Source: Cafeteria roenbergensis
Taxonomy: Eukaryota; Sar; Bigyra; Bicosoecida; Cafeteriaceae
NCBI GenBank assembly: GCA_008330645.1
Contig: VLTN01000001.1
Span: 868,001 to 932,000, forward strand
DNA: 64,000 nucleotides
Reading direction: 5' to 3'
Below, in pieces: positions 24,376 to 60,400 of this stretch. Position numbers and translations under genes: made by a program. Within the stretch, counting starts at the first letter, position 1. Each line of letters begins with the position of its first letter. A model generated the notes under the pieces. It did not search any database, was not told the origin of the DNA, and saw only the letters and a list, made by a program, of their open reading frames with translations.

Positions 24376-24539
24376 ACTTAACTGCCCTGGGCGCGGACTT
24401 TTTGTCTACCTCAAATACAATGACAAACGGCCTGCCTCTGGCGCTGGAATCGTGCGCGCTTGGACTTGATTTTTCTCGCTCTTCCAAGCCAAACTGCTGC
24501 AGTGCCTTCGTTTGTTGTTGCACCGGATTTGAATGAGCC

Positions 24540-24544
24540 AAAAA
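24540..24544 (-). terminator. Pol III T-run behind tRNA-Met copy 2
   Basis: Five A on the plus strand (T5 in the transcript sense) 12 nt beyond the tRNA 3' end; a short but sufficient Pol III stop. Confidence 0.7.
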
Positions 24545-24556
24545 GAAGTTGTTTCG

Positions 24557-24630
24557 TGGGCTCACCGAGACTCGAACTCGGGACTCCAGCCTTATGAGAG
24601 CTGTGCGCTAACCAACTGTGCCATGAACCC
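24557..24630 (-). tRNA. tRNA-Met (CAU), elongator type, copy 2
   Basis: Same 74-nt sequence as copy 1. Its 5' flank differs: the CAGTTAAGTG seen before copies 1, 3 and 4 is replaced by GC-rich sequence, although the first bases next to the tRNA are shared. The 3' trailer is similar to the others. Confidence 0.96.
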
Positions 24631-24885
24631 ACTGGAGGGGCAGGGACCCCAAAATGCGTATCCAATGCTTTGCAGATTGTGCTGGCAAGAGCGCCGGCTG
24701 CCGCTGCTCCTTTGCGGCCCACATTCGTTGGTGCGAAGCCCTCGCAAGCCCCACGGGCTCCAAGCACGCGACGAACACACACGGGTGTGGGCAAGGCGGG
24801 ATTTCACTCGTCGCTCGAACCGACGGCTTCAGCCCCTCCAGGAGGTCCTCACCGAGCTCGACATCGTCCAAAGTGGACGGGACAT

Positions 24886-24898
24886 AAAAAAAGAAAAA
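24886..24898 (-). terminator. Pol III T-run behind tRNA-Met copy 3
   Basis: Seven A and then five A on the plus strand, separated by a single G, 12 nt beyond the tRNA 3' end: a strong double T-run in the transcript sense. Confidence 0.85.
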
Positions 24899-24910
24899 GA
24901 GTTGTTTGAA

Positions 24911-24984
24911 TGGGCTCACCGAGACTCGAACTCGGGACTCCAGCCTTATGAGAGCTGTGCGCTAACCAACTGTGCCATGAACCC
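24911..24984 (-). tRNA. tRNA-Met (CAU), elongator type, copy 3
   Basis: Identical in sequence to copy 1, with the same CAGTTAAGTG 5' flank and a closely matching 3' trailer (TTCAAACAACTC then T-run in transcript sense). Confidence 0.96.
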
Positions 24985-25331
24985 ACTTAACTGCGAGATC
25001 TCGGGATTTATGACTCTATGTAGTACACCAGACAGGGAGGTAGTCCGCTGCGTCGCTATTTTTGCCGGCTGCCGCCCCCGCGCGCATGATCATTCAAGAC
25101 GTGGCTGTCGCGCCCTCGCCAAGAACGGGCGGCTCCTCAATGGGAGTCAAGAAAAAAATCGGCGCTCGTGCCTTCGGCGGCCATTCTCAGCCCGTTGCCG
25201 AGCTGGCCCGGCTTTCTGACGGCATACGGCAGCCGAAGCGTCAAAGTCCCTGGCCTCGCAGGTCCCTCGCTGCCACTGGAACGGAGGAGAGGGGGGAAAG
25301 GCTCAACAGGGAACCTGGAGTCCACAGAAGC

Positions 25332-25341
25332 AAAAACAAAA
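25332..25341 (-). terminator. Pol III T-run behind tRNA-Met copy 4
   Basis: Runs of five and four A on the plus strand interrupted by one C, 12 nt beyond the tRNA 3' end. Confidence 0.7.
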
Positions 25342-25353
25342 GAAGTGTTTGAA

Positions 25354-25427
25354 TGGGCTCACCGAGACTCGAACTCGGGACTCCAGCCTTATGAGAGCTG
25401 TGCGCTAACCAACTGTGCCATGAACCC
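25354..25427 (-). tRNA. tRNA-Met (CAU), elongator type, copy 4
   Basis: Identical in sequence to copy 1, with the same CAGTTAAGTG 5' flank. It is the rightmost and therefore the first in transcription direction. The distances between successive copies are 255, 354 and 443 bp, with unrelated spacers. Confidence 0.96.
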
Positions 25428-35296: not shown

Positions 35297-38200
35297 TCAG
35301 TCGCGGTGGGCGGCAGCCGGGGCCGGCTCAAAGGAGGCCTTGCTGTCCCCTGCAGCCGCGGCATGGAGCGGGTTGGGGGAGGACTCCCCTCCGGCCTCGG
35401 ATGCCGAGGTGGCGGATGCGCTCGAGCGCACCGTGGAGCGCTTGCCAAGTAGCCTGCCTCGGCTGGTTCCGCGGCGGAGGGTGCCGGGCTTCTTGAAGAG
35501 GGGGTTGGCTCCGGGGGCGTCCGTGGCCAGGGCAAGCCTGTCCTCAGGAGTGGCCGCAGTTGCAGCGCGCATCGGGGAGTGGCTGAACCGCTGCTTCTTC
35601 GACGAAGAGGCCATGCGGCTGGCGCTGCCAAGGGCGGATGCCTGCTCGGCGCTGCGCTTGGAGGCCGCGATCTCCTCCTGGAGCTTCTTGTACTCCGCGC
35701 GCACGATCTGCCACGAGGCAGCGTCGGGCACCGTCTCGGCGTCGATGATGCGGGACGCCGAGGCGCCGATGCCACCGGCGCCACCGTCGCTGGACATGAA
35801 CATGGGGTTCAGCTGGGCCGAGTCGGAAGTGACCGCGTCCTCCATGGTGTGCGTCGGAGACGCAACGATGTCGCCCTCGTCCATGAGGTCGTTGCCGCTG
35901 CTCTCGCTGGCCTTGTCGCCCTTGCCTCCCTTGCCACCCTTTCCGCCCTTGCCGGAGCCCTTCTTCTTGGTGGCCACGGTGCGGCCGCTGCTGAACTGCA
36001 TGTACGTCTCGTTTCCGACCACAGCCACGATGTAGAGCAGCGAGATGATGAGCACGAGGGTGAGGACCCAGGTGATCGTCTCCGCCTGCGCGGCCACCTC
36101 GGGACGGTAGGTGAGGTCCAGGGCGCCGGACTGGAACATGATGCCCGCCAGGCAGGTGAACACGCCGCAGCCGAGCAGCACCGCCTCGACGGAGTTGTAG
36201 TCGAAGAAGTTGGTGACGGCCACCTTGCGCAGCGACGGGGCGTCGAGGCCCCACATGGAGCGAGCGCGCTGGCGCTTCTCGTGGCGCATCTGGGCGAGGG
36301 CGGGGGCGATGTTGCTCGCGATGGACTGGTGGACGGGGTTGCCCTCGCGGACCAGCCGCTGGTGGCGCTGGATCTCGGCCTCGAAGGTGGAGGGGGGCAT
36401 GTACGGCACGAAGCGCACCTGGAGGGCGTACGCGACGAACATGACCAGGAGAGCGCACGCCAGCTGGTAGGCGGGGTTCTCGCGGAACATCAGGGCCACC
36501 ACGGAGATGAAGGCCTTGCGCGCCACGATGACGAGCACCCAAGCGTACAGCTCCGGGCGGAAGTGCTGGTAGAGCTTGGAGAGGTACTTGCGGAGCACGT
36601 AGCTGTTCGGGTTGGTCAGGCGGCTGTCACCGATGCCGAACACGCGGAGGATCTGGTCCTGGCGCACGCGGTCCCGGCGCGTGAAGAGCAGGTAGCCGAG
36701 GATGGCGGGGTAGCCGAAGGCGTACAGAGCGAGGGCGATGCCGGCGAAGGGCGCCAGGAACATCTGCATGCCGTTCGGCTCCCAGCAGCGCTCGATGACC
36801 GACTCCATGTAGGTGAAGCCGTCGTCGGGCACCACGGGCGAGCAGTTGAACACGTCGAGGGAGTTCCGGGCCTCCACCATGTAGGCGTAGAAGCCGAGCA
36901 TGAGCATCGAGCCGGTGAAGGACGGGCTGTGGTTGCACAGCTTCTTCCGGTCGCGGCCCATGCAGATCTTCTTGAGCACGATGGCCACGTGCAGGATGCC
37001 GAACATGACAAAGGCGGCCACGGGCAGGAGTGCGACGGCGGCCCACTTGAGCGGGTAGCCGAGGTCCGGCAGGATGCACTCGGGGGCGGCGATCTCGAGG
37101 TTGAGGTTGAAGGCCGACAGCACGTACAGGATCTCCTTGATGAGCGGCGGCCAGGGGACCTTGGCGCGGGAGATCATGGCGAGGACCTGCATGTAGTCGA
37201 TGGCGATCTGCACCGAGGCGAGGTGGATCTTGAAGCGCTGGAAGGCGTACGCGCCCACGCCGGCCGCCATGATGGCCACCACGAAGGCGATGAGCTGGAC
37301 CAGGGGCAGGTCCGGGCACTTGACGCACTCGCCGGCCCGGCGGTAGAACTCGCCGCGCAGGCACTGCGAGCACCTGGTGCCCTCGTAGCCGTAGAGGCAG
37401 GTGTTGTTGCCGGTGCATCCCTCCGCCGGCTTGCAGCCCACGGGGTAGAAGCAGTACGAGCGGTGGGCCGAGTCCAGGCGCTCCGCGGGGCAGTTCTTGC
37501 GGTACGGGTCGGCGGCCTCGACGGTGTTGTTGGGCTGCAGGTCCCAGAAGCCGGGGGCGGCGTACGGCCACTCCAGGTCTCCCTTGCAGACGCCGCCAAT
37601 GGGGCAGGGCAGGCACTTCTCCTCGATGCCGTACCAGTTGAACGGGCAGCGGAGGCGCAGGCGGCCGTCAGCGGGGACGGGGTTGGCATCCTGCCCGGCC
37701 ACGAAGATGGTCATGTTGCGCACGCCAGCCTCGTCCTCGGACACGACGCAGCGCAGGTAGGGCTTGCCCTGGTTGGACGAGTCCCGCACCCAAGAGCTGC
37801 CGTTGCAGTCCTTCCCGCCGATCTTGATGTCCAGCATGGTCGGGGACGGGCCGAAGTTCTTTCCGAAGATGGACATGACCTGGGTCCCGAGGGCGCTCGG
37901 GGTGTTCGGGGTGAAGTAGTCCACCTCCGCCGGGTCGTAGCTGAACATCCAGGGAGTGGAGTACCTCTCCATCACCTTGACGACCAGCCGCAGCTGGCGG
38001 CCCCAGCCGGAGGGCACGGGGCAGTAGAGCTGGGTGTGGCTGTAGACCTTGGAGTCGGAGCTCATCCACAACCCAGCGGCGTTCTTGACAACGGACGTGG
38101 TGCACTCGACAGCATCGGCAATCTCCTCCGGCGAGGGGTTGAAGCCCGAGGCGGTCATGGACGCAAGAGAGCGGCCGCTGGTGCGGTACTCGCTGGCCGG

Positions 38201-41200
38201 GCGGAAGAAGAGGACGCTGGTGCGCTGCGTGGAGTTGAGGCCGAAGCTCGAGCCGGAGATGCTGAGCACCTCGCGGTCCGCCGCGTTGCGGTCGTCGGCG
38301 GGCCAGCTGCCCTCGGTGTCGATCTCCTTGGGCATCAGCATCGCGGTGATGTTGGGGCGCTCGTAGGCGAAGGTCACCACGTTGGAGGTCTGGCCGGCCA
38401 CGTTGACGCGGACCTCAATGCGCTCGCCCTGGCCCTCGGGGAACCTGAAGGTGGCCGCGGCATCGGTGTGCGAGCCGTTGGTCGAGGCAAGGATGGCAGC
38501 GATCGCGATGGCGAGCGGGTTGACCTCCTCCGCGTCGAGGGTGCTGGGCGGCGCTCCGTCCTTGCCCGGGACGACGGTGAGGGCGTCGCGCCACGCCTGC
38601 TTGGGCAGGGACGCGAGAGTCGCCTCCGGGTCGGCCATGGCCGCAGCGATCAAGGACGAGCGGCTCGCGAGCGTCGAGTCGTGCAGCCAGACCGAGCCGG
38701 CAGCGGCGCCGGCGAGCAGGACCTCCGAGGCGGCCGGGACGACCACCGCGCTGGACCAGTCGGAAGAGGTGAGCGGCTCCGAGTCGGGAACGCGCACCAT
38801 GATCTCGAGCTCGGCCTGGCCGAGGTTCTCGCCAGTCAGCGTGGTCAAGAACCCGCCCTGGGTGGGGCCCTCAAGAGGGCCCACCGAGGAGAGGACCGGC
38901 GGGTCGTAGGCAAACGCCTGGGTGTCGAGCACGACAGGGTCGCTCACGGCGTATCCAAGCGAGCCGGCCTGGCCTGCTGCAGTGACAGTCACGGTCCAGA
39001 AGCGGCCCTGGCCGGGCGGCAGGATGCAAGATGCCTCGGTGTGGGTGGCAGCAACCACGGGGCAGTCCACCACCACCGGAGAGCTCGTCCACGGCGTCAC
39101 GCCGTCCGAGCGGAAGGCGCGGCCGGCGAGGCGACGAAGGGTCACAGTCGGCATGCTCACGCCAAAGTTGGCGCCAGACACGGTCACGGTGGAGCCGCCG
39201 GCAGCGGGGCCGCTGCGCGTGTGCGTGCTGATCTCGGGGGGCGCGTAGGAGAACTCGCGGGCCGCAGCCTGTCCGAAGGCCGTGACGCGGAGAAGGAAGC
39301 CCTTGCCCTCGCCGGCGGCGATGCGGGCCACCACGCGTTCGTGCGTCCAGCTGACAAGCGTGAACTGGGTCTCCACGGCCACCTGGGGGAGGCCCGGGCC
39401 GGCCGCGGGGTGGAAGAGGCCAAGCTCGGCGTTCAGGCAGGCGCTGAGGTCGACGCAGGCCGACGAGAAGTTGCCGCCAGTCACCTCGATGAGAGAGCCC
39501 GTGGTGGGGGGCAGGCCCTGGTTCAGCATGACGGTGTCGTCCGCGTCAGTGACGGCGCGCCAGCCAGTGATGGCCGGCGGCGCGAAGGACACAAGCTGGG
39601 GGGGCGGGGTGAGCCCGGCGGCCGAGATGGACAGGCGCTGGTCGACGCCGGCACCCTCGGGGGTGACGCAAGTGATCGTGTTGTACTCGCGGTTGAGGTC
39701 GTCCTCGGACTCGGGCTTGCGGAACGGGTCCGACACGGTCAGGGACTGGCAAGGGCGGCCCTCGATGTTCATGGCAAAGCTGGCCTTGTCGATGGAGCGC
39801 ACCTCGAACGTGAGGACATGGCCACCGGCCGTGGGAAGGCGGAGGTCGCCCCAGTTCGCGCCCTCGAGGTTTCCGATGGCAGGCGTCTCGCGGCTGAACT
39901 CGCGAGCGTTGGAGTACTGGCCGCCCGCGCCGACGCGGATGAAGCCGGTCTCCGAGTCCTGGATGCACTGCACCTCGCGGTGGGCGATGGTCACCGTGCA
40001 TTGCACAAGGAGGCTGTCGAGCGAGTTCTGGTTCTTGGCCAGCTGGAAGGTGGCCTCGGAGTCGTAGATGTACACCTCAGGGCTGCTGGAGAAGTCTTCG
40101 CCGGCAATCGTCAGCTTCGTGCGGACTGCGCCGTTGTGCCGGACGAGCTCCTTCCCGATGTCGGAGCTGATCACGGGCGGGTTGTAGCTCCAGAGCATCA
40201 CGTTCGAGTGGGCCTCGCCGAAGGCCTCCAGGCCGCCCGGGCCGGTCTTGAGGACCAGCTGCATCGGGATGTCCTTGCCTGCGCCCTCGGGCACGTGGAA
40301 GGCCAGCGAGTGCGCGGACTGGGCGCGCGGTGCGCCCTTGGACACGGACCAGTCGGACGAGTTCTCGACGGCCAGCAAGTAGCGGTTGTCCCACAGCAGG
40401 CAGATGCGATCGGTGCACGGCACCGCCCCGGGAAGGCCGGGGATGGTGGTGGTCGTGAGGTTCGTCTCCGGGTCGAACACGGCGTTGGAAGTCTGCGAGA
40501 ACTTGAAGTCGCTGCCGACGCGCTTCTCGCGGATGCCGAAGTCGAGGCCGAAGAGGCGCACCTGCGGGTTGCCCTCGGTGGAGCCGGTTGGGGGCACCAC
40601 CGAACGGATGTCGGGGTCGGCGTAGTTGGACGACACAGCGGACAGGCCCGAGTCCTGCCCGCGGACGGCCATGCGCCACCGGAGGCCGCGGCCTGTGCCG
40701 GCAGTGGTCAGACAGCGCACAAGGTTGTGCGAAACGACTGAGCAGTTGTTCGCGACGAATTCGCGTCCGGTGCGACCGTATGTGACGTCTTCCAAGTAGC
40801 TGACAGAGCCGTGGGGGCCGAAGTACTTGCCGACGATGTCCACGACCTGCGACCCGTCCGAGAAGCCGTCCACGGCGCCGGCGCTGGTGAGCGACTCGAT
40901 CACCGGCTCGTGGTAGTCAGTCGTGGGCGAGCGAGAGCGCTGCCCGTCAATCCAGACCACCCAGCGCAGGCCGGCACCGGCGCCCTCTGCAGTGCTGCAG
41001 ACCACCTTTTGGTGGGGCACGGAGAGGCTGCAGTTGGTGGCGACGTACTCCTTGGACGAGTTGTCCAGGCCGTAGGTGACGCGGTCGATGCCCGAGGAGA
41101 GCGGGCCGAACTCGAGTCCCTCGATGATCACGACCTCGGAGCCCTTGGTGTTGGCGTCGGAGGCGCCAGGGCCGTCGTAGCGGGTGACAACGGGCGGCGC

Positions 41201-44200
41201 GTAGGCAAGGCCCACAACGCCTGGGACGGTGGTCTTGTTCGTGCCCAGCTCGTAGCCGACGGGGTCCACCGGGACCTCCTCCACGTTGCCGAGGAACGTG
41301 GTGGTCTGCCCGCGGATCGACAGAGTGATCATGTGCCCGAAGCCGCTACCGGGGGCGGTCTGGCACGTGACGCCCTGGTGGGCAGCCGAGACCACGCAGC
41401 CCACGGCCTCGTAGCGGGACGGGGCCGTCACGGGACCGTAGCGCACCACGGGGACGACGAGGCCGGCAGGGCCGAACTCTGCGCCCTCCAGGGTGAAGGC
41501 AACGCTGCCCTTGGTCGGGCTGGCCTTCCAGCCCTGGCCGCCGGCCTCGTTGACAACGGGCGGCAGGTACGACGCCACAGCCATGCCAGCGGCCGCCGAC
41601 GTGGTCGGCACCGTCGAGGCAAGGCCGCGCATGGCCACGGCGAAGACAAGGTTCTTGCCCACGCCCTCCGTGGAGGAGCACTGGATCGTGTCGTGGGCGC
41701 CGCCGACGACGCGGCACTCGGTCGCCTTGAAGCGAAGGAGGCCGGGGGCAGCCGCGGGGACGGGGGTGGTGAGCGGGGTCGCGGTTGCGGGGAGACCGAA
41801 GCCAGCCTCGCCGTACCACACGCTGACGTCGACGATGCGGTCCGGGCCGAAGTTGGCGCCGGTGATGACGATCTGCTCGCCACCCGAGGTCTGAAGCTTC
41901 GGCGTCAAGCCCGTGGCGGAGGCTACGACCTTGGTGGTCGAGGGCGAAGCGTAGCGCATGCCGTCGGTGTCGATGTCGCCCACAAACGCAGGCGAGTCCT
42001 GCCCTTCAACACGCGCGTAGAACTCGAGCTTGGCGCCGAGACCAGGGCGGCTGCGGCACTCGATCTCGGTGTGCGCGGTGATGGAGCGGCAAGACACGGC
42101 GTCTTGGCGGCGGCTTGTGCCATAGGAGCTGTCCCACAGCTCCACCACTGGGCCGTAGCGCACGACCTGCTCGAAGCCACTGGCGGGGTTGCCGAAGTCG
42201 GTACCCGTCACGCGGAACACGGAGTTGCCGAGGGTCGGCATGAACTCCGGAGCGCCCGGCACGAAGTCGGGCCGGTAGACGCGAGTGACCTTGGGGGCGA
42301 TGTAGCCGGTGATGGGGCGCTTGAACTGCCAGGTCGGCCGAGTGACCGAGTTGTACAGCTGGGCGGTGCCCACGACCTCGATGTCCCAGCTCCACTGGGT
42401 GCCGGCGCCCTCGGGGATGCTGCACGACGCGTGGGTGTCGTTCACCAGCGTGCACGAGGCCGAGGCCGTGTTGTTCCGGTTCGCCCGCGAGATCGCGGTG
42501 GCCTTGAACTGGTGCGCCTCGGCGGCAGTGATGCCACCGAGCTCGTTGGCGAGCTTGCGGGCCGTCGGGCCGAAGCCACGGCCGATGAGCCACACCTGGA
42601 CACCGCCCGACGTGGGGGCGAGCACATCCACGCGATCGGCGGCAAGGGTGGCGTACTGGTCGAAGTCCGCCCCCTGGGCGCTCATGGAACCCGCCGGGGC
42701 GATGGCGCGGCCAGATGCGCCGCCGCGAAGCATGAATCCCACCAGCACGATGTCGTTGGCGTCGGTGAGCGACACCTGGACGACGGAGGTGCGGTTGAGG
42801 CCTCCTGCGTCGCGCACGCCCACGGCGAGGTTGTACACGGTGCGGTCCTCGAAGTCAAGCATGGCCTTGTGCGCGTCGTTGTCGTCCACGACCTTGTCGA
42901 CCATGATGCGGCCGGTGGTCGCGTCCACGCGGAAGGCGCCGTTGGCGCCGTCGTCGTCGGTGAGGAAGAAGCTCAGCACGCCCCAGCTGCCGTCGTCCTC
43001 GTCAGACGCGGTCATCTGCGCCACAATGGTGTTGAGGCCGGCCGCCTCGGAGAGGGACACGGTGGCGGGCGCGGTGAACACGGGAGGCTCGTTCACGTCG
43101 ATGACCGTGATGGTGACAGTGGCCGTGTCGAATCGCATGGTCGAGTCCGTCACCTTCACACCCAGGGAGAAGGAGGCCGTGGCTTCGTGGTTCATCACAG
43201 CGCCGCTGGCGACCGTTACCACGCCAGTGCTCTCGTTGAGCGCGAAGGAGGCAGCCGCGGCCGGGTCGGTCCAAGTGTAGACCAGCTTGCCGACGTCGGA
43301 GGCGTCGGGGTCGCTGGCAACGATGGGGGTGGTTCCGACCTGGGTGCCGGGGGGCGAGTTCTCGTGCACTGCAAGAGAGATGGCGGGCGACGAGAACTTG
43401 GGGGGCTCGGGCATGTCGTTGACGTTGATCGTGATGATGGCACGGGCCTCGAGGGGCGCGGACACGAAGCTGTCAGTCACTGTGATGGCACCGTAGAACA
43501 CGGTGCGGGTCTCGAAGTCGACCAGGCTGGGGTCGGTCACGAAGATGCGGCCGCGCGAGAGGCCGCCGATGCCCATGCCGTCCTTGACGGTCGAGATGTT
43601 GAACGGGAATGGCCGGTTAACCGACTCGCCCACGGCGGCGATGGTGTACGACACGTCCTGGGGAGGGTCGTCGTCCTTGTTGAGGTCATCCGCGGCAACG
43701 TAAGTGACGGTGAAGTCGGCAATCGGGTTCTCGTCGATGGACAGGGTGACGCTTGAGAGCTCGGGGGCGATGTTGTTCTCGGTAAACTCGACCACGAGCT
43801 GCGATGTCACCTGCAGGTCGAGCAGGTCGCTCACGATGAGGGTGAGCGTGTAGACCTTGCCCTTGCTGAATTCGACCCCCTCCGCGATGTCGGGAGGCAC
43901 GGTGAGACTGCCGAAGCGGTCAAGCTCGAAGCCGGGGTCCGACGGCGTCACCGACACCAGCGAGAAGGAGTGCTGGTCGCCGACATCCTCGTCGAGCACG
44001 TAAGCCACAAGCGGCTTGCCGATGGCACCGGAGGTGCGGGCACGCTTGTACACCACGGCCGGCGGCTCGAAGCTGGGCGCCTCGTTCACGTCCGTGATGG
44101 TGACGGTCACGATGGAAGACGCGTTGAGGCCGTACGAATCGGTCACGGTTACGAAGAGGGAGACCTTGCCGCCGGCGTGGCTCTCGTGGTTGAGATTCCC

Positions 44201-47200
44201 CGACACAGTGCCAGGGGCCACAGTGACGCGGCCAGTGGAAGCGTCGATGGCGAAGTAGGGCTTCACGCTGGAGGGTGTGGTGCTGGAGATGGAGTAGGTG
44301 AGCACGTCCCCGACATCCACGTCAGTTGCGGTCACGTTGATGATGTCGACTCCGCCCAGGGAGTTCTCGGGCACACTGGCCGCCAGCGTCGCGCTGACCA
44401 CAGGGCGCTCGGGCGCGTCCAGAATGGAAACCAGGTACGACATCTGGGCCGAAAGGCGGCCCTTTCCGTCGTCAGTGGCCGTCACGGTGATGAAGTACTT
44501 GTTGACACCCTCGTAGTCCAGCTTCGCGGTTGTCGACACGACCAGCTGGCCCGTGAGGGCATCCAGCGTGAAGGCGGCCGAGGGAGTCTGCTGGGCGATG
44601 CGGTAGGACAGGCGCTGGTCTTCGTCCACGTCGGTGCCCATGATCGGGCTCCCGGACACCACAGTTCCGGCAAGAGCAGCCTCCGACACATTCAGGACGG
44701 CTGGGAGAAGCTGGGGGGGCTCGTTCACGTCCAGGATGATGATGTTCACGTGCGCATCCGTCGACAGGAGGGAGTCGTTGACGCGGACGGTGAGCCAAGT
44801 GCTCTTGAGCATCTCGTAGTTGAGCTCCGGGTGGAGCGTTGTGCCGTTGGGGGCCGAGTCGGGGATGGGGGCCACCTTGAGGAGGCCGGTAGTCGGGTCG
44901 ATGACGAAGAGGCGGCTGCCAAGCGAGCCGTCCTCAACGATGGAGAAGGTCACGGACGAACCGGCATCGTAGTCCTCGCCCTGCACTGCCTTGTTGGTGG
45001 CGGTGTCGGGGGGCGAGTTCTCCGGGATGGTCACGTTCTGGTTGTTCGGCACCACGGGCGGCTCGTTGAGATCGTTGAGCTTCACGCTGATCTGGGCCTC
45101 GGCGTAGAGGTTGGCGGGCCGCGTGCCGTCGTCGGTGGCACGCACGGTGATGGTGAAACTGTTCATGTACTCGTAGTCCAGGCCCTGGCGGAAGCCCTTG
45201 AGGGACGTCTTGACCTTGAGGGTGCCGGTGGCAGAGTCAATGTCGAACAGCCCCACAGCTGCGGAGTCCTCGTGCACGATGCTCCACGTGTGGGTCTGCC
45301 CGAAGTCCTGGTCGGACACAGCGATGGGGAGGCCGAACGTCGTGGGCGCCACCGTGTTCTCGTCCACGAAGCGCGTTGCCGGCACCACGACGGGCGGCTC
45401 GTTCACGTCCAGAATCATGACGGTCACGTTGGTGGTATCCGAGAGCCGGGCCGGCCCAGGAGACGAAGCGCCGTCGTCGGTGACGGAGATGAGCAGGTGG
45501 TAGACGCTGCGGGTCTCGAAATCAAGCGCGTCCCGGGCGACCTTGAGCTGGCCACCGCACGGGTCGATCTTGAAGAGACCGTCGTCGTTGCCCTGCTCGA
45601 TCTTGAAGTTGAGGATGTCGCCGAGGTCGGGGTCCGAAGCCTCGAGCGGGTCGCCGATGACCTCGTTGACAGCGCTGTTCTCGTCGATCTTGCGGACAGG
45701 GTCCTGCTCCACCGTCGGGCGCTCGTTGCGGTTAAGGATGTTCACCTGGATGGTGCCCTGCACGCTCTGCTGCGGCATGCCGCTGTCCTGGATCTCGACA
45801 ACGAGAGCGATGGCGGGGGTGCCGTCGATCTGGCTCGCAGACTCAAAGTCCAGAGCAGTGATGTTGCGCACGTAGAGCATGAACCCGCTCGAGGCCGCGG
45901 ACGCGTCGGTGCTTGCGTCGACGGGGCTGGGCGTGCCTGCGGCGAGGTCCGCTGCACTCACGAACTCGCCAAAGGCAAAGGCGCCGTTGGTGTTGCCGCT
46001 CACGATGCGGATGGTGTGGTTCTGCGCAAAGTCCTCGTCGGTAAAGCCCACGGGGCTCTGCCCAACGCCGTTGCCTTCCGCCGAGTAGAACGGCTTTCCC
46101 TTGCCGTCCACGGAGTCCATCTCAGCGACCTGGAGCAGCTTGGTGGTCAGCACGGGCTTCTCGTTCACATCCTGCACGGAGACCACGACGACACCGGTCG
46201 CGGTCAGCGAGTCCTTGTCTGTCACGGTGATGCGAAGCGTGAAGGTTGAGTAGCTCTCGTAGTTGAGGCGAGACGAATCGCGGACGGTGACCTTGCCCGT
46301 CGTGGCGCTGATCTGGAAGACGCCGATGTCGTTGCCATCGGAAATGGCAAAGCGCAGAGTCTCGTCGGCGTCCTGGTCGGAGGCCGAAGCCGTGAAGACG
46401 GTGGTGCCAACGATGGAGTTCTCGGCAATGCTGGCCGTTGTGGGGCCAGTGTACACGGGAGCATCAGGAGCATCGCCCACAGTGATGTACACGGTCCCGT
46501 ACGACGTGAGCCCTCCACCGTCCTTGGCGAACACGCTGAGGGTGTACGAGACGCGGGTCTCGAAGTCAACGGCCTTGGCCAAGGTGATGGCTCCGGTGCT
46601 CGGGTTGACGGCGAACGTGGTGTCGGTGACAGACGCCGCAAGACTGAACACGATTGTGTCGTCCTCGTCCTCGTCAGTCGCCTGGAGCGTGGCCACCTTG
46701 GTTCCCACAGTCGTTGCCTCGCTGACGGTGATGTTGGGGTCAACGATCACGATCTTCGGGGCATCGTTGGCGTTGGTCACCAAAACGCGCACCGTCGTGG
46801 TGGCGGTGTTGGACCCGCTATCGGTGACCTGGACGTCCAGTGCAAACGACTTGGTGGTCTCGTAGTTGATGGCGCTCGTCTTGGCCACCTTGAGCTGGCC
46901 GTCGTTGGTGATGGCAAACGCTCCGGCCGAGTTTCCGCTGACGATGCTGAAGGTGAACTTCTCGTTGGCGTCCTCGTCCGTGGCCACGATGGCTGTGCCC
47001 ACGCTGGTTCCGACAGCCGAGTTCTCCACGATGTCGAAGGACAGGCCCGACTTGAGAGTCGGAGGCTCGTTGACGTCCTGGATGTTGATGGTCACCGTGG
47101 TGTCGTCAGACAGCGGCAGAGCGCCGGCCTTGACCGGGATGTCAAACACGCGCACGTTCAGAGTGTACGACGAGCGGGTCTCGTAGTCAAGCTTGCCGAT

Positions 47201-50200
47201 CACGGTGAGCTTGCCTGACGAGTCCATCTGGAACGCGTTGAGGGCCCCCGAGATGATGGTAAACTCGAGGGGGTCGTCGTTCGGGTCCGAGGCGGTGAAG
47301 GCGCCGGAGATGACCGAGCCGATGGCCACGTCCTCCTTCACGGTCACAGTGGCGCCAGTGATGACGGGCGGGTCGTTGGTGTTCTCGAGGCCGACCGTGA
47401 CCGAGGCGGTGTCTGACTTGGACGTCTTGTCCACCACCTTGACGTCCACCGTGAAGGTGGTGCCGGTGCCGGAGGCCGTGGGCAGGGTCTTGGCGGCCTT
47501 GAGCTGCCCAGTCGTGGACACGATGGTGAAGTAGTCACCCGCCGGCTGCGACGTGATGGAGTAGGTGAGCTCGTCGCCGTCGTCCTGGTCGGTCGCGGTG
47601 ATCGCCGCACCAATGTTGGTGCCAGTCAAGGCGGATTCCTGAACGGCGCGGCGGATGCCGCCGTCCTCGTCCTCCACGAACTTGGGGGCCTCGGCGACGT
47701 CGTTCACGTTGATGATGAGCGTGAGAGAGGCCGTGCTGGTGCCATCCGAGGCCTGGATCTCCAGGGAGTACGACGACTTGGGGCCCTCGTAGTCGAGCAA
47801 CTCGCCCTTGCCGGCGCCGACAACCAGGGACGAGGACGAGATCGCAAAGATGTCGTTGTCGTCACGGCCCAAGATGGAGAAGGTGATCGAGTCGCCTTCC
47901 GGGTCCGTCGCCTCGCTGCCGAGCGCGATGACCACGGTTCCGTCGGAGGCGCCCTCGTCCACGGTCTTGGTGACCTTGCTGTTCTGGAACACGGGCGCTT
48001 CGTTCGCGTCGTTGATGGTCACGGTAACAGTGGCTGTGTCGGACAGCTTGGGGCTGCCGCTGTCCTCGATCTTCAGGCCAAGGGTGTAGGACGAGGTGGT
48101 CTCGAAGTCCAGCTGCTTGTTCACGCGGATCTGACCGGAGACCGAGTCGATGACAAAGACAGAGCCAGTGTTGCCCGACGTGATGGAGAAGAGCGGGGTC
48201 TGCGACACATCCGGGTCCGACGCGGTGATCACGTCGCCGACTGCGTCGTTGATCGCGGCGGCCTCGGACACGGACCGAGAGTAGGTGGACGAGGAGAACT
48301 TCGGCTGCTCGTTCACATCCTGCACGCTGATCACCACAAGGGACGAAGCAGTCGAGCCCGAGTCGTCGGTGGCCACGATGGTCACCTGGTGGGACTTGGC
48401 CTGCTCGTAGTTGATCGTGGCTCCAGACTTGACCTTGATCTGGCCCGTGGTCGAAACGACCTCGAAGAAGCCGGAAGTGTCGGAGATGGTATAGGTGAGC
48501 TTGTCTCCGGCATCGGCGTCGGTGCCCGACACAGCCGCTCCGACGTTGGTGCCCGCCGCGGAGTTTTCGGCAATGGACCGCTCGACGGTGCCACTGGGCA
48601 TGACAGGAGCATCGTTGGCATCAGCAACGTTCACGGTTACAGTTGCCTTGGCGGTGTTGGTGCCGTCAGACACGGTGACATCGATGGAGTACACCTTCTT
48701 CGTCTCGAAGTCGAGCACCGCCTGGCGGACGAAGATCTCCCCGTTGGAGTTGACGGAAATGGCGTCGGGGTCGTCCTTACGCGAGACGGTGAACGTCAGC
48801 GAGTCGCCATCGGGGTCGGATGCAGTCATCTGGCAGATGGTGGTGTCCTTGGGGGTGTTTTCGGAAACGGAGCAGGTCTTGTCGGCGATCACGGGCGGCT
48901 CGCTGACGTCGTTGATGTTGATTGTCAGCGTGCACGTGGCCGACAGAACCGGAGAGCCATCGTCCTTGACCGTCACAGGAATGGAGTAGCTCGACTTGGT
49001 CCGGTAGTCCAGCTCGGCCTTGGCAACAGTGACCTGCCCGGAGCACTTCTGAATCTGGAAGGGCGTCGCGGGGCCGGTGAAGTAGAACTCGGAGGCCTGT
49101 CCGCGGTCGGGGTCCGACGCCTGCAGGGGGGCGCCCACCGGGGTGTCCACCGGAGAGCCCTCGTTCACGCTGAGGGCGCTGCAGCGCGTGATGGTCGGGG
49201 CCTCGTTCTTGTCCACGACCGACAGCTTCACGGCGCAAGTCAAGTGGTCAGCAGACGTGGTGGCCTGGGACCACGCGGCACGAACTGAGAGCGTGTACTC
49301 GGGGCAAGTCTCGTAGTCGATTCCCTTGGCCACCGTGATCTGGCCAGTCGTAGAGGAGAGCGAGAACACTCCCGAGGTGAAGGTGCAGCCGGACGCCGGC
49401 GTGACGCTGAGCAGCGAGTACGAGATGCTGCCAGTCGAGTACCCCTGAGACAGCTCGGCAGCGATGGCGTTGCCTGCAGACCCGGTGGCGTACTCTCCGA
49501 TGGACACTTCGCCCTTGTTGTCAGACGTGCACCCACCAGACGACCACTTGATAGGCGGAACCTTGACACCGTTGAGGCAGACGTCGCTGCCTGTGCACTT
49601 GACGACGCCCGTGCGCAGCTTCCAGTCCGCAGTCACGGGGGTGCTGTAGTACCCATCCGCGGCCTTGGACACGGAGCCGGAGCCGGCCGGGCAGTAGCAG
49701 AGGCCCGGCGACAGGGCGCAGCTTGAATCTGCCTCGCCGCACTTCTTGACGGTGCTGTACCTGGAGCCCGCGGGGCAAACGTAGCCAGCGGCACAGTTTC
49801 CGTTGCAGTTGCTGCTGGTGAGCCGGGTGCTGGATCCGTACCGTCCAGCGGGGCAGATGTAGGAGTACCCGTTGACGCAGTAGTAGCCGGCGGGACAGCT
49901 GGCCTTGCCAGTGCGGGTGGTGCTCCCACCGCCGGTGCCGTACTCGCCGGAGTAGATCGCCAGCTTGGACGTCGTGCACGACGGGCAGTACACAGTCGAG
50001 GAGCCGCAGTACGACTGAGTGCTCGAGGACGACCCGGCAGGGCAGTAGTAGCTGCGGGGCGGAGCGCGGGAAGCCCAGAGCGGCGTAGGGTCATCGAGGC
50101 AGCGACAGGGCAGGCTGTCTGCCGTGCGCAGCTGAGCAAGGTGCTTCGGCGCCTGCGAGCGAGGGCGGGGCCGCACAGGACGCATGCGCGCGGGCAGGCG

Positions 50201-51328
50201 GACTCACCCTGCTGAGCAGCAGCCAGAGCAGCTCGACGAGGTTCCGTAGGCGGACGTGCCGTAGCGGCCGGTCGGGCAGGCAGAGCGGCTGCTGGCGCGT
50301 GCGTAGGAGTAGTAGCCGGCGCCCACGGCCGTGCAGCTGGAAGCACCGCCAGATGCGTACCTGCCAGCGGCGCAGCCGTAGTAGGTCGTGCTTGCGGCTG
50401 CACAGGGTCGTGGAGGGAGAGGGGGGGGCGGGCGGAGGAGGCATTAATCAAGGCACGCGGCAGTGCTGGCCGGAGCACGACACGTCTCGCGCGAAAGAAC
50501 AATCTGGGCAGCTGGACAGGGCACCTTGCAGCGCAGCCGACTCACTGGGGCAGTAGTATCCGCCCGGGCACCTGCGAACAGGGGATAGTACGCACGAGCG
50601 GGAGGCACGGGGTGGCGCAGGGGCGACAGCACGGCTGTGGCCAAGGAGGGGGCCGTCAGAGCGCGAGGCGTCGGCAACTGCAAGCAAGGGTCGCTCACGA
50701 GTAGCAGCGACTGTTTGCGGTGTAGGGGTTGTACTGGCCCGCGGGGCAAGCTGCGGGGAGAAGCACAGACAGGGGCGGTCAAGAAGCGTCGGGCGCGTGG
50801 CTGTGGCGCGGGGGCAGGGCAAGCTGCCAGCCAGTGACGGCAAGCAGGCACGCGAGCAGCGAGCGAGCAAAGCCGGTCAATCCTCACACCAGCACGCCGT
50901 CGTGTAGTGAGAGCTGTAGCTCATGTACTTGCCAGCGGCACATGAGGCGCTGCGGAACATTGCGAACGTGGGGGCAACGAAGCGGCGAGGGGGATTGCTG
51001 GGGGGGAGGCTTGGCACGGAGCCGGCGAGCGGCAAAACGGCAACCGAAAGGCGCGTGCTGCAGATTCAAGCAGCAGGCCACCCCGTGGCCTCGGGCGTTC
51101 CCGTAGGTCGCGAGGCGCGGCCCCTGGGAATCTTCCGGCGCTAGTCACGCCCTCACCAGGCTGCGAAAGAGCGTTCGAACGGGGGGATCGAGGGGCAAGG
51201 GGTGGGTGGGCGACGCAGGCGAATGGGCCGAGCTGGGGGAACAGCGCGCGGCTTCGAGGCGAAAAAGTGCAGGTGTTCCAACCGCTCACAGTAGCCCGTC
51301 GAGTACTGGCCGTAGCGGCAGATGCGGC

Positions 51329-51360
<32 letters not shown>

Positions 51361-51665
51361 CGGCGACGACGACGACGACGGCTCCATGCTGCGAGACGGG
51401 GGGGGAGGGGGGGAGGGAACCGACAAGAGCGTCGAGCGATGGCGACGAGCCACGGGCAGAGAGTAATCTCGAAGCCAATATTTTCGCGCGTGCCCTCGCG
51501 CCCAGACTGGAGCGCCAGTCCCCGTTGCAGCCCCAGGCGAGGGGGGCGAGCGATAGGCTCACCGTCAGCCTCGTCAGCGCAAAGCAGGAAGACCACCAGG
51601 AAGAGCGCGAGCAGCGTCCACCATGGGAACCTGCGCTTGGTCACCGACCGAGAGGCGGTTGCCAT
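35297..51665 (-). CDS. 5,096-aa cadherin/IPT/Cys-rich polytopic receptor-like protein, eight exons
   Basis: Minus strand. Exons 51665-51563, 51388-51290, 51160-51157, 50949-50888, 50750-50699, 50571-50546, 50397-50208 and 50051-35297 sum to 15,291 nt, in frame; all seven introns (127-207 bp) have GTGAG donors and CAG acceptors. Order: signal peptide or anchor (FPWWTLLALFLVVFLLCADE), 19 arginines, then GCC2/GCC3-type Cys-rich repeats whose units (SCAAGKY, SCPAGQY, SCPGGYYC, CAAGRY, GYYCPAG) are joined exactly by the splices; about 20 cadherin repeats (residues ~370-2610) with DVNEPPV linkers and LDFE/LDYE calcium-type motifs; about 13 IPT/TIG domains (~2660-4260, e.g. GGEQIVITGANFGP); a Cys-rich module (~4313-4425); about eight to nine membrane spans (~4426-4866); and a basic, Lys/Gly- and Ser-rich cytosolic tail. 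Probable role: surface adhesion or sensing receptor. A specific ligand or signalling partner cannot be named. Confidence 0.93.
51157..51160 (-). other. 4-nt coding microexon of the cadherin-receptor gene
   Basis: Minus-strand CCTG flanked by a CTCTTTCGCAG acceptor and a GTGAGG donor. Exon 2 ends in phase 1 and exon 4 needs phase 2; only these four bases bridge them, and they supply the Ser-Cys of YSCASCAAGKY, which matches the neighbouring units ACWSCPAGQY and RCYSCPGGYY. Confidence 0.85.
51324..51380 (-). repeat. CGN trinucleotide tract coding 19 consecutive arginines
   Basis: 57 bp of alternating CGT and CGC codons at the start of exon 2 of the cadherin-receptor gene, directly after the signal-peptide exon. 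Its base pattern is microsatellite-like. The acceptor just upstream has a C-rich pyrimidine tract, so inclusion in the mRNA is likely. Confidence 0.75.
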
Positions 51666-54010: not shown

Positions 54011-54400
54011 TGCACGCGGTGTGCACCGTCTCGGTGCCCTCAAAGCGGAGTACGGCCTGCGGACCGCGTTGTGCCGCCGCAGCACCAGCAGAGCGAACGT
54101 CGGGTGGTGCAATTTTGTTGTTGTTACAGGCGGCGCTGGTCGATCGATGACCCCCTGCGATGTTTGGGCGGGCAAGCGTTTGCCGCGCTGGTTTGCGTGC
54201 CTCCGTCGGACCGGGGCACGTCTTCAGGCCCAAAGACTCCACTGCGCTGAAGGGTCCAGCTCATCGCGTTCGGCCCTGCCCGCGGCCTGCACCCGCCGCT
54301 GGGACACGCGGTGGCGCGAGACCACTGCGAAACCAACGACACCGGGAGGGCGTGGCCGTCGCGACTTCTGCGCGGAGCACGCTCGCAGCTTCTGGCTCCC
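54011..54400. other. Divergent intergenic region between SDR and PH-protein genes
   Basis: 390 bp between the start codons of two divergent genes, so it should hold both promoters. The only AT-richer patch is 54105-54130 (contains TTTTGTTGTTGTTA). The end next to the PH-protein gene is open in the same frame as that gene but lacks an ATG. Confidence 0.5.
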
Positions 54401-57400
54401 ATGCAAGCAAATGGCCGGGCCGCAGCGGACTCGGTGCGTCGACGCAGCCAGCCTGCGGCAACCGGCGCGCGCGCTGCCGCACGCGTGCGACACCACCTGG
54501 TGCGCGGGGAGCAAGCCGGAACGGCGCGTACAGGTACCTTCCGCACGGTGCCAGCACCGCCACTGCCCTCAAGCGCGCGGAGGTATGCCCCTGCACGGGC
54601 GCAAGCAGGTCCGACCGCATGGCCCGAAGACCGCGTCAGGGGCGTTCAGCATGGGCACACGACTCAGAGGAGCAAGTTGCGACAAGAGGTTCAGCCTCGA
54701 CGTGGTCGTGACGCCCGGCTCGCCGGAAGCGAGGGCACAGCCTCGTCCTGCTCTAGCTCGACAAAGCTTGACCTTGCAGCCTCCATACCTGACGACGTGC
54801 TGGATTCTGTCCAGAGCGACGACAGCGGTGATATTGGGCTGTCGTGGCTCGTGCGGGACATGAAGAGACAACGGGAGCGGCTCGACCAGGCCCCGCAGGC
54901 AGCGGGGGGCGACAGGTCCAGGGCACTTGACGCCAGTGAGCTTGCGCCCTTGGCTACACAGAAGTTTGCGCCCGGAGTGGATCCAGGGCTCGCAGCCCAC
55001 TGGCATGTGACCACGCCTCCCACCCAGAGCGAGGCAGGCAGCGACGCGACTGGCGGCTCCAAGCAATTTTGGGTCGATGCCGCGCCCTCCGTGCGACGGC
55101 GGCGCCGAGTGGGCGCTCCGCACGACTCAGCTGGCGACAGCACACAGCCAGAAACACCTCAGCCAGCCTCCCCACTGAAGCCAGAAGTCGCAGGTGTCCA
55201 GGTGGCCTTGTCTGACGGCACCGCATCTCTCGGCTCGAGCGCGTCGTCAACCCCCGCGCCGCCTGGAGCTGAGCTTGGCGTCACCATTCATGCGTCGCCA
55301 AGTCAAGGTCCCCTGTCTAGTCAACTGAGGCGCCGCCAGCCAGATGAAGACTTGGAGGCTTCAAGCATCGATAGCACAGGCTCTGGAGCGGACTCTGAGA
55401 TTGCGGGAGGGCCTCCTGTGGTGGAATCAAGGTTGGTACAGGTGCCAACCCGCACCCCCGCCATGGCTACCAAGCTTGCTGCAGAGGGCAGGCGATTTTT
55501 TAGCTTTCTTCAGGCGGTCGCAGCTTTGAAGCAAGGATTTCCTGTGATTAAACACGCGTCCTCGTTCGTGACGACGCCATCGGCTCGCGTGCTGTGGCTG
55601 TTGCCGGGCACGGGGGAGGCTTCCACGCGCCAGAGCCGAGAAGCGGCGTCGAGTGTCCAGCATGCGCTGCAAAAGGTGAGCGCTGCGCGGTCCAAGACGC
55701 AAGGCGGCAAGCCCGTTTGGGGAGCCGACACAGCGTTGGAGATCTGGCCGTACTCCAAGTTGTGCTACAGCGCCACCAAGACGAGCTGCGTCCATGCTGA
55801 GGGCGTGCGGAGCCTGATGCTTGCCGAAGTTGTCCAAGTCGAGAAGGGCATCCCTGCGGACTGCACGTTTTTCCAGGCGAGCACCAGGGTCCGCAGCGTT
55901 CCGGCAGCTACCTGCTTTGTGATCCGCGCAACCGAAGGGCGGCGGCTCCAGCTACAAGCTGAGGACGTAGCAAGCCGGAACTTGGTCGTCGCGTACCTCG
56001 AGCGGCTTACGGAAGCTGTGACAAAGTCCCGACGCCATGTTCCTCTGGTATCAGTTGGGACGTCGAAGCTCGCACACAACAGCAAGCCTTTGACGGAGTG
56101 GAACTCTGCTCTCGCGATTGACCGCGAGCGACTGGAGCGGCTCAGAGCCCACAAGGAGGGCAGAGAGCCGTTTCCACGCAGCCCCATTCGCCGCGACATG
56201 GCTGGGGGCTTTGGCTCTGACGACGACGGAACGGACGGCGAGCTCGGACCAGAGTCGCCTTCGGAGAAGGCAGGACAGCTGTTCAGTGCTCGGAGGCAGG
56301 CAGCTGGGAAGGCAACCACGCACCTGGTGTTGGGTTCCGCAAGCAGGGAGCTCGCAGTTCGGCAGCTGATGCCCGACTGCAGGTGGACGCGGCGAACGAT
56401 TCGGGCTCAGCTGCCTCGCATCGAGCAGGGAGCTGTCGAGCCCCCTCGGCGTCGCCGTCATGGCCAGCAAACTAGTGGCTTGGCATGTGTGCCCCCGAAC
56501 CGCAGTGGCGACAGGAGCAAGTCGCCACCAGCGCGCCACCGTGGTCGCAGCTCGGGCGTGGTCGCGATGACGGGTTTGGGCCCCGGCGACCGTCAGGCGT
56601 CGCCGTCGTCCTCGTCGGCGGACGCCTCATCACCGGGCGATCGGCAGCAGCGGGGCCGGAGCGCGAGTCGGGGCCGGGGCCGGGGGCGGGGCGCCGTGGG
56701 TGAGGCATGGGGGACTGTGGCTCCTCGCCGCCGGGGCCGTCGGGCCGGGGCCGGGGCCGAGCGGGAGGCGGAGGCGGGTGAGAGCCCCGGCGGCCGTCGG
56801 GCGTCGCCGTCGTCCTCGTCTGCGGACGCCTCATCACCGGCCGATCGGCAGCAGCGGGGCCGGAGCGCGAGTCGGGGCCGGGGCCGGGGGCGGGGCGCCG
56901 TGGGTGAGGCATCGGGGACTGTGGCTCCTCGCCGCCGGGGCCGTCGGGCCGGGGCCGGGGCCGAGCGGGAGGCGGAGGCGGGTGAGAGCCCCGGCGGCCG
57001 TCGGGCGTCGCCGTCGTCCTCGTCTGCGGACGCCTCATCACCGGCCGATCGGCAGCAGCGGGGCCGGAGCGCGAGTCGGGGCCGGGGCCGGGGGCGGGGC
57101 GCCGTGGGTGAGGCATCGGGGACTGTGGCTCCTCGCCGCCGGGGCCGTCGGGCCGGGGCCGGGGCCGGGGCCGAGCGGGAGGCGGAGGCGGGTGAGAGCC
57201 CCGGCGGCCGTCGGGCGTCGCCGTCGTCCTCGTCGGCGGACGCCTCATCACCGGCCGATCGGCAGCAGCGGGGCCGGAGCGCGAGTCGGGGCCGGGGCCG
57301 GGGGCGGGGCGCCGTGGGTGAGGCATCGGGGACTGTGGCTCCTCGCCGCCGGGGCCGTCGGGCCGGGGCCGGGGCCGAGCGGGAGGCGGAGGCGGGTGAG

Positions 57401-60400
57401 AGCCCCGGCGGCCGTCGGGCGTCGCCGTCGTCCTCGTCGGCGGACGCCTCGTCACCGGCCGATCGGCAGCAGCGGGGCCGGAGCGCGAGTCGGGGCCGGG
57501 GCCGGGGGCGGGGCGCCGTGGGTGAGGCATCGGGGACTGTGGCTCCTCGCCGCCGGGGCCGTCGGGCCGGGGCCGGGGCCGAGCGGGAGGCGGAGGCGGG
57601 TGAGAGCCCCGGCGACCGTCGGGCGTCGCCGTCGTCCTCGTCGGCGGACGCCTCATCACCGGCCGATCGGCAGCAGCGGGGCCGGAGCGCGAGTCGGGGC
57701 CGGGGCCGGGGGCGGGGCGCCATGGGTGAGGCATCGGGGACTGTGGCTCCTCGCCGCCGGGGCCGTCGGGCCGGGGCCGGGGCCGAGCGGGAGGCGGAGG
57801 CGGGTGAGAGCCCCGGCGACCGTCAGGCGTCGCCGTCGTCCTCGTCGGCGGACGCCTCGTCACCGGCCGATCGGCAGCAGCGGGGCCGGAGCGCGAGTCG
57901 GGGTCGGGGGCGGGGCGCCGTGGGTGAGGCGTCGTCTTTGCTTCGAGAACCACCGGCCACTCTCGTCCGTCCCACCATCGACGTCAATCTGGTACAGCTC
58001 GATACCATGAGCCTTTCGCAGCCTCAATCGACCTCAGCCCCTCCTCCATCGCGCTGGGAGGCCGCATCAGCAACGAGAAACACAGCAGGTGGAGTGGCTG
58101 CACTGGGGCCAACTGGTGCAGATCCGACATTGCGAGCCATCAGCCCGCCCCGGCCAGCCGACGCGCGCGATATTGTTTTGCACGCTGTCAAGGTGGAGAC
58201 TTTTGCTGATGGCCTGGGGGCGGCCAGTGAAGCTGGCGCTTCAGTGGCAGCAACGGAGCTGCAGGGAATAACCTTTCGGCAGCAGTTCCGAAGCAAGGCG
58301 TCGGCGTCATTGCTGAAGCGGCCAAACATGGCGGCAGCTGGGGCAGTGCGGGCGACGCCGCCTTTGGATGCAGCCACGATCCGCGACTTTACACCACCAT
58401 CGCCAGAAGGCCGGGCGCCTCCACCTGGTGAGCCCACTGCTTCCGCTGCCGACACGAAGCAGCGACGCAGGCGGCTCCAGCCAGCGGCGGCGCCCCAGCC
58501 AAGTCCGCAGCCGGACGCCTCACTTCGCAGCGCCACGAGTTTAAAAGGCGCAGGCCCCGAAGCTCTCGGTACTCGCGGCGCTAGGTATCCCCAAGCTCCG
58601 CCAGAAGGGCACCAGCTGGCTTCGGGGCCGGACATGGCGGCGATGCCGGACTCGCCAGCACAAGAGGCTCTCGCGACGGCAGAAGAAATCGCTCCAGAGC
58701 AAACTTCTCCGCGCAGCATGGCATGCACGAGCTCAACTCCGGCCACTACCTCGCCTCGGGACGCCCCGCGTCCCGAATCGGACTCGTCGGCAGGTCGAGC
58801 CCCAGAAAAACCAGCTGAACTGCAGGCGCATGAACTCGCGCTGGATACGCCGCTCGCGAAGTCTGCCAGGCGAGATACCCTCATTCCACGATCACGACCT
58901 GACGCCGCTGCGACAGCACGCTCGATGTCTGCGCGTGCTGTAACTTTGCCCACAGCTACGGACGCTGACGTTTCAGAGAGTTGCCCCGTGCAAGAGAGGT
59001 CGAGCGGAGCGGGAGATCTTCAACGCGTGCGCCCAGATGCTTCGTCTGGGACTAGCGCAGCCTCCAGCTGCGTAGGGGAGACCAGCCCAGCGCCAGCTGC
59101 GAGCCCACTCTTGCCTGCAGAGGGACTCAATGGCAAACCACGACTTGAGCGATTCTTTGTGACAAGGGGACTGTCTGTGGGAGGAGACGTGGAAGTGGGC
59201 TCCAGGACACCATTCTCTCCACTGCTTGAACCAAATGCTCCGATGACACCTCTCATGTCGAGGAGCAGACCAGACCCACAGCCGGCCCCAGGACAGACAC
59301 AATCGAAGTGTCCAACCTCGGCGGACTTTGACGACGACAGCAGCGGACCAGCTCCAACTCGCTCAGTGGACCCGCGTTCGCCCGGGTCCAGCGAGCCTGG
59401 CCCTGGGCCACGCCGAGACGCTGTTTCCCCAGACAGGTCGTCGCCGCCGAACGCGATTGCTGACAGCGCTAGCCACGTCGCAGAGCCTGCGATGTCCACC
59501 CGGCAGCCGTTCCTCTCGGCTGGGGTGTGTACTGCTGCGACCGAAGCAGCGGACGCTGCTCTTGCGCACGTAGCCGCGGCTGCTGCTGCCGTGGCGGAGG
59601 CAGCGGCGAAGCCTGCGGCGGGCGCAGAGGTACCCGCTGCGCTCGACGCTCGACGCTCAACCACGACCGCTGGCGAGGCAGCAGCTGCTGGCCACTTGCC
59701 GCCCAGCAGCGCTTCTAGAGCTGAGGTTGGTGCTGGCTCGTGCACTGCCGTTCGAGTCTCGCACGAGAAAGCAGCGGCGGGTCCGGCTGTCCTCTACCGG
59801 CTTGAGAGCCGCGACTCTTCCGTTCCTCAAGCACCTTGCCTGGAGACAGCGGCTAGGCCAGCAGGTTCCGCGAGGCGGGCCGGGCCCAAGCCATCACTCG
59901 TCAGAGGAGTTGGCGACAGAGCGGAAGTCCAAGCAGCTGTGCCAGCTGAGCTCGACTTGCTTCGAGGAGCAACCGGCAAAGCAGTAGTGGAAGCCGCAAT
60001 TGCTCGCCTCGCAGAGGCTGGCCTTTCAGGGAACGAGAGGCCCAGCTCAAAACGTCAGCCTCCACCAGGCCGCTTGCTGGGTGGCGCGCATGGCGCAGCC
60101 ACGGAGACTGCCTCTGAGCAGATTCGTTCTCCCGGTCAGGGGCAGCGAGAGCGGGAACGAAGTCGGCCATTGTCGGCCAGCTTGCTGCGGTACCACAAGG
60201 CGCTTGCAGCTGCTAACGCAGGAGGGGCCCATCGCAGGACGCAAAGGCCTCAGGAGTTGCCTAAGCCTCGCCACAGCCCCTCCGTGCAGCGGACGGCGCA
60301 GGCGCCAACCGAAGCGGTGCGTGTCCAGCAGACCCTCCCGGATCCTCCTCCTGAGTTGCCAGCTGGCCAAGCCTCACGGCACAGCAGCAGCGATACGGCG

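Follow-up and report, generated by a model that had tools for sequence, protein, structure and literature searches.

This locus raises the question of whether four nucleotides, CCTG, lying between two introns near the start of a long gene, form a coding exon of their own. To our knowledge, exons of 1–4 nt have been described in only a few lineages. We analyzed a stretch of 64,000 nucleotides from Cafeteria roenbergensis, a species named C. burkhardae in later work (contig VLTN01000001.1, positions 868,001 to 932,000), referred to here as the window and numbered from its first letter. We conclude that CCTG at 51160–51157 is most likely a real 4-nt coding exon, with a probability of about 0.85. 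That it is used constitutively would be a further step, to which this figure does not extend.

Gene model and predicted product

The gene lies on the minus strand of the window, from 51665 to 35297. Together its eight exons make up 15,291 nt and encode 5,096 residues with a single stop at the very end, as had been originally predicted; this closure of the reading frame is directly observed. Exon 1 (51563..51665) carries the start ATG and a leader that by eye is hydrophobic and signal-peptide-like, MATASRSVTKRRFPWWTLLALFLVVFLLCADEAD, and ends at a GTGAGC donor. Exon 2 (51290..51388) encodes a poly-Arg run followed by CRYGQYSTGY, ends in phase 1 and also has a GTGAGC donor. It is followed by intron 2 (51161..51289; 129 nt) with the acceptor TTTCGCAG, the microexon CCTG as exon 3 (51157..51160; 4 nt), intron 3 (50950..51156; 207 nt) with the donor GTGAGG and the acceptor TTCCGCAG, and exon 4 (50888..50949; 62 nt), which reads ASCAAGKYMSYSSHYTTACW and must follow phase 2. 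Exon 5 (50699..50750; 52 nt) and exon 7 (50208..50397; 190 nt) follow in the eight-exon model, and exon 6 between them (50546..50571; 26 nt) falls inside the usual size range of microexons. The intronless exon 8 (35297..50051; 14,755 nt) encodes the remaining Cys-rich region, 18 Pfam cadherin stretches, TIG domains, the C-terminal part and the stop.

At its N-terminus the product has the leader, the Arg run and units rich in Cys that follow the pattern CxxCxAGxY. Pfam family PF00028 matches exon 8 in 18 stretches with 611 bits, and TIG domains are matched too. We regard the product as a cadherin-repeat protein of ~5,096 residues that is probably exposed at the surface. The Cys-rich N-terminus (420 residues) matched none of the Pfam families, among them PF07699, which we take to be GCC2_GCC3/ephrin-receptor-like; PF07699 is present in some database relatives of the product among the matches listed.

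Two features of the gene's 5′ part were observed in passing. First, all seven introns crowd into the first 536 coding bases (51665–50052), while the remaining 14.7 kb down to 35297 is one exon, and in three paralogs from the same genome (C23, C92 and C59) the introns likewise lie 5′ of long open frames. This arrangement would fit either 3′ intron loss by way of reverse-transcribed copies or the insertion of new introns close to the 5′ end. Second, the Arg run of exon 2 (51388–51290) is a CGT/CGC codon repeat, found in a shorter form directly after the signal-peptide-like leader in C23 and C92, and many genomic sites carry repeat DNA resembling it.

Splice sites flanking CCTG

On the minus strand, CCTG is directly flanked by consensus sites, the acceptor TTTCGCAG and the donor GTGAGG, in agreement with the original prediction; the surrounding sequence is ACGCTCTTTCGCAG before and GTGAGGGC after. 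All other sites gathered from the gene and three paralogs follow the same pattern, with GTGAG at 12 of 12 donors and GCAG at 12 of 12 acceptors. A site matrix was trained on these 12 donors and 12 acceptors, whose positions come from homology and visual inspection rather than from RNA; the training set takes in the exon-2 donor and the exon-4 acceptor and excludes both sites flanking CCTG. Scored with this matrix, the microexon acceptor is the best of the 14 AG sites in 51325–50943, and the microexon donor is second of 15 GT sites, with only the exon-2 donor above it. The quality of both sites is a direct observation.

In the spliced model the join reads GGCTACT-CCTG-CGCCTCATG, where the microexon finishes a Ser codon (T|CC) and a Cys codon (TG|C). 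Joining exon 2 directly to exon 4 breaks the frame, with a stop after YSPHVPLAST, and this path was rejected as out of frame. The same stop bears on the possibility that the exon is real but optional, or that its pair of sites is a recursive-splicing site, with some transcripts skipping CCTG or keeping the intron. Both outcomes are possible in principle, skipping leading to the early stop and retention of intron 2 leaving the frame intact, but both microexon sites score high for the gene family. We consider optional use unlikely, and its share falls inside the probability given above for a real exon. If CCTG were optional, a transcript without it would encode a protein that ends shortly after the signal peptide, and regulating its inclusion would switch the protein on or off.

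In-frame splice paths between exons 2 and 4

The original prediction held that the frame requires four additional nucleotides. Exon 2 does end in phase 1 and exon 4 does follow phase 2, but the frame needs an insert of length 1 mod 3 and not 4 nt specifically. We enumerated all paths built from GT donors and AG acceptors in 51325–50943 with 0 or 1 internal exon and introns of at least 40 nt, leaving out GC donors (52 counted). This gave 637 paths. Of these, 171 keep the frame and contain no stop, 16 of them lacking an internal exon and 155 having one, and frame arithmetic by itself is no proof of the microexon. Restricting all donors to GTGAG and all acceptors to GCAG leaves four paths, two with the 4-nt exon and two retaining intron 2, and both of the latter leave from the same donor at 51156 as the microexon. 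They exist because the 129 nt of intron 2 contain no stop in the exon-2 frame.

Intron 2 might accordingly not be an intron at all. Exon 2 would then run to 51157 (232 nt) and be spliced from GTGAGG to exon 4, and 43 more residues (CERLEHLHFF...) would precede CASC. Such a model is simple, in frame, stop-free and bounded by consensus sites, it is among only four strict-site paths, and a gene finder could pick it. The original claim that the microexon is necessary was to this extent overstated, since CCTG is needed to keep the frame once this reading has been excluded, which is achieved only via codon usage and homology. The existence of the path itself needs no explaining, since a direct in-frame consensus path arose in 57 of 300 shuffled sequences, and it would make no use of the donor at 51289, which fits the consensus, or of the acceptor at 51160, the best in the region.

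Codon usage of intron 2

Read in the exon-2 frame, intron 2 comprises 43 codons that score −0.542 per codon (GC3 0.67 vs 0.90). Windows of the same length from exon 8 (n = 4,874) average 0.656, the lowest being −0.007, and none was as low as intron 2. This first coding model had exon 8 in its training set; exons 2–7 without exon 8 score 0.643 per codon with it. With coding models built from paralogs only, intron 2 scored −0.487 or −0.376, depending on the non-coding set, compared to exon-8 minima of −0.025 and 0.011, and again 0 of 4,874 windows were as low. The N-terminal exons alone (exons 2–7, 366 nt) reached 0.705 and 0.823 with the paralog-only models. Intron 2 looks like the other introns and not like coding sequence, a character that is directly observed and on which its retention as coding sequence fails.

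Paralogs encode the supplied residues without introns

Relatives of the gene were sought in the DNA of the window's own genome (36.30 Mb, 167 contigs). Used as query, the spliced N-terminus had 36 matches, of which four fell on the gene itself. Eight of the 15 paralogous places (counted from match rows) entered the profile set, with C9 represented by protein P0040, which is 99.3% identical to the C9 locus; one of two C52 copies, a near duplicate here, and six others more distant over the join were left out of the profiles. Over the compared parts, paralogs of the gene are ~99% identical to C. roenbergensis FNF27_01895, FNF29_02052 and FNF31_07950.

The closest paralogs, C23 and C92, encode the join in one exon and without a gap, reading YSCPSCRAGTY and YSCGSCGAGYY compared to YSCASCAAGKY in the window gene; the longer alignment shows YSSCYSCPSCRAGTYQPYSRH in C23 and YAACYSCGSCGAGYYQPYGSH in C92, one exon each, and YSTGYSCASCAAGKYMSYSSH in the window gene. 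A further paralog, C2, has a single open frame across the entire stretch, and its alignment shows no gap over the joins of exons 2, 3 and 4 (CPPGSTMSGPTCSECPKGTY vs CRYGQYSTGYSCASCAAGKY). The gapless join is thus seen in C23 (YSSCYSCPSCRAGTY), C92 (YAACYSCGSCGAGYY), C2 (SGPTCSECPKGTY) and C9 (SGSSCVACPKGTY) when aligned with the window gene (STGYSCASCAAGKY). The Ser and Cys supplied by the microexon are the same residues that paralogs without introns at both places encode, as in the YSC.SC shared by C23 and C92. Homology is in this way observed directly across both joins. The exon-2 frame is backed by the first exons of C23 and C92 (SADAWGRRRRRR vs EADAWSRRRR), where the ADAW junction and then the Arg run are kept. 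A 4-nt coding exon, as originally proposed, is therefore the best reading, given that paralogs intronless here encode S and C without a gap.

The 171 in-frame paths were scored with four profiles, one from the eight paralogs and three from subsets of 5, 2 and 3 sequences. The microexon path ranked first with all four, at 37.2, 42.6, 23.3 and 12.9 bits, compared to 35.4, 36.6, 17.0 and 8.6 bits for the next-best paths. The margins are 1.8, 6.0, 6.3 and 4.3 bits, the weakest lead being the 1.8 bits obtained with the eight-paralog profile. No other GT-AG path with 0 or 1 internal exon in 51325–50943 outscored it with any profile. In pairwise scoring, the microexon version beat the versions with no exon, with one residue and with intron 2 retained for seven of the eight paralogs; the exception was C95, where two rival versions scored 89 and 89 compared to 88. 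The path retaining intron 2 ranked 3rd, 3rd, 3rd and 4th with the four profiles, and an insert of such a kind is absent from all eight aligned paralogs. Together with its codon usage, which lies below that of every exon-8 window, this makes an extended exon 2 very improbable.

Intron positions are not conserved in the family. C23, C92 and C59 each carry an intron here that has the phase of window intron 2 but lies several codons 5′ of it (in C23, after CSYG). In all three, the frame is unbroken from YSC (TCKPC in C59) onward as far as the loci of 1.7–1.9 kb reach, and therefore window intron 3 at least is not common to them. In a model with a provisional start codon, C59 (L037) also has a 20-nt exon 2, GTCTTGTAGATGCGGATACG, between TGCTGCAG and GTGAGC. 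With the 26-nt exon 6 of the window gene, short exons therefore recur in this family.

Chance expectation

We shuffled the 340-nt gap 20,000 times, preserving dinucleotides and keeping the exon-2 donor and the exon-4 acceptor fixed. Any in-frame internal exon bounded by GCAG and GTGAG appeared in 244 of the shuffles, one of ≤30 nt in 72 and one of exactly 4 nt in 10. Only 1 of 20,000 matched the microexon in its sites and the real homology score together, by criteria set after the finding was known. When site quality was ignored, 3 of 300 shuffles reached the real best homology score. Homology alone is moderate evidence, and sites and homology together are strong evidence.

Across the genome, no excess of the pattern TYNCGCAG-N4-GTGAG was seen (14 places vs 11 for a reversed control), and 4-nt exons are not visibly common. 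The bare 4-nt string pattern is not rare genome-wide, so that position and homology carry the case. Neither a close repeat nor another copy of the region turned up among the 47 genomic matches of a 545-nt query, for which 40 of 115 candidates were scored: 46 fell within query positions 38–125, the exon-2 codon repeat, and the remaining match was the query's own locus.

Least probable of the alternatives is that the assembly is wrong by one base at a splice boundary, for example through loss of a G at the exon-2 donor. One extra base would remove the frame problem and join exons 2 and 4 as YCASC, with the Cys still in CxSC spacing. This peptide, however, falls one residue short of the microexon version, and its scores are lower with all four profiles (e.g. 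36.6 vs 42.6) and for seven of eight paralogs. In addition, TTTCGCAG-CCTG-GTGAGG would have to be one of the chance 4-nt consensus exons seen in 10 of 20,000 shuffles, and PMC6972860 describes the published Cafeteria assemblies as polished with PacBio and Illumina reads.

Annotation and literature

The original prediction added that most gene finders would miss such an exon. Neither a near-identical protein nor an ortholog was found for the gene in protein databases among entries of about 260–8,600 residues (apart from narrow gaps in coverage near 823 and 2,625–2,704 residues), where the candidates sharing most words were scored (1,277, 7,988 and 7,996) and two of the results comprised the best 120 of 197 and the best 120 of 200 matches. 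This absence fits the claim but does not prove it. Four missing bases can cost the annotation the 5′ end of such a gene. In the searched library no paper joined microexons with Cafeteria, and those joining microexons with stramenopiles concerned other subjects, judging by their titles and the opening of their abstracts.

Probable mode of splicing, and known ultra-short exons

Exon-definition complexes hardly fit on a 4-nt exon. Provided that the gene is transcribed and CCTG is included, as we infer, the short flanking introns (129 and 207 nt) would probably each be recognized as a unit by intron definition and removed one after the other, and the spliceosome would never have to define the 4-nt exon. 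Either order of removal would leave the other site intact: exon 2 joined to CCTG would keep CTG|GTGAGG, and CCTG joined to exon 4 would keep TTTCGCAG|CCTG. Inclusion would restore the S-C in YSCASCAAGKY at the start of the first Cys-rich unit. We propose this mode of splicing by analogy with the model for the 1-nt exon of Arabidopsis and the minigene results for human MPC1.

In human MPC1, a 4-bp constitutive microexon is spliced, and splicing persists in minigenes with the exon cut to 2, 1 or 0 bp, the last needing both sites intact (PMC9929638). In Fusarium CYP621A, a 1-nt exon is kept in many orthologs and confirmed by reads (PMC12940212). In Arabidopsis APC11, a 1-nt constitutive coding exon is experimentally confirmed and widely conserved in plants (PMC4674806; survey PMC8831610), and its authors favor intron definition with stepwise removal of both introns as more plausible (PMC4674806). 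CCTG resembles the MPC1 exon in being 4 nt long, a length that is not a multiple of three (PMC9929638). As with CYP621A, it was found via incompatible neighboring phases and an intronless relative as length marker, and it finishes a codon in a conserved motif (PMC12940212); as with APC11, it is an ultra-short coding exon of which copies without the flanking introns exist (PMC4674806). The Cafeteria exon, 4 nt in one stramenopile gene with short introns, is known from sequence alone, unlike MPC1 with RT-PCR and minigenes in human cells (PMC9929638), the 1-nt CYP621A exon with reads and many orthologs (PMC12940212) and APC11 with experimental confirmation and wide conservation in plants (PMC4674806).

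Exons this small have already been described in plants, animals and fungi, and CCTG is a well-supported further example that involves no new mechanism. A confirmed case in a bicosoecid would add to the known spread of organisms where exon definition can hardly operate. It is a tentative and rather doubtful idea that the Cafeteria spliceosome is so fully intron-defining that exons only a few bases long are commonplace close to gene starts. If so, a family with 4-, 20- and 26-nt exons on the one hand and continuous-exon copies on the other would be a natural series from which to work out how introns get inserted until almost no exon remains between them.

Two other features of the window were observed. 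First, the minus strand at 24302–25427 carries four tRNA matches with identical scores, their starts 255–443 bases apart. Second, the plus strand at 54251–61297 holds a putative, mechanically called open frame of 2,348 residues with several near-identical repeat copies, including ASPSSSSADASSPADRQQRGRSASRGRGRGRGAVGEASGTVAPRRRGRRAGAGAEREAEAGESPGG.
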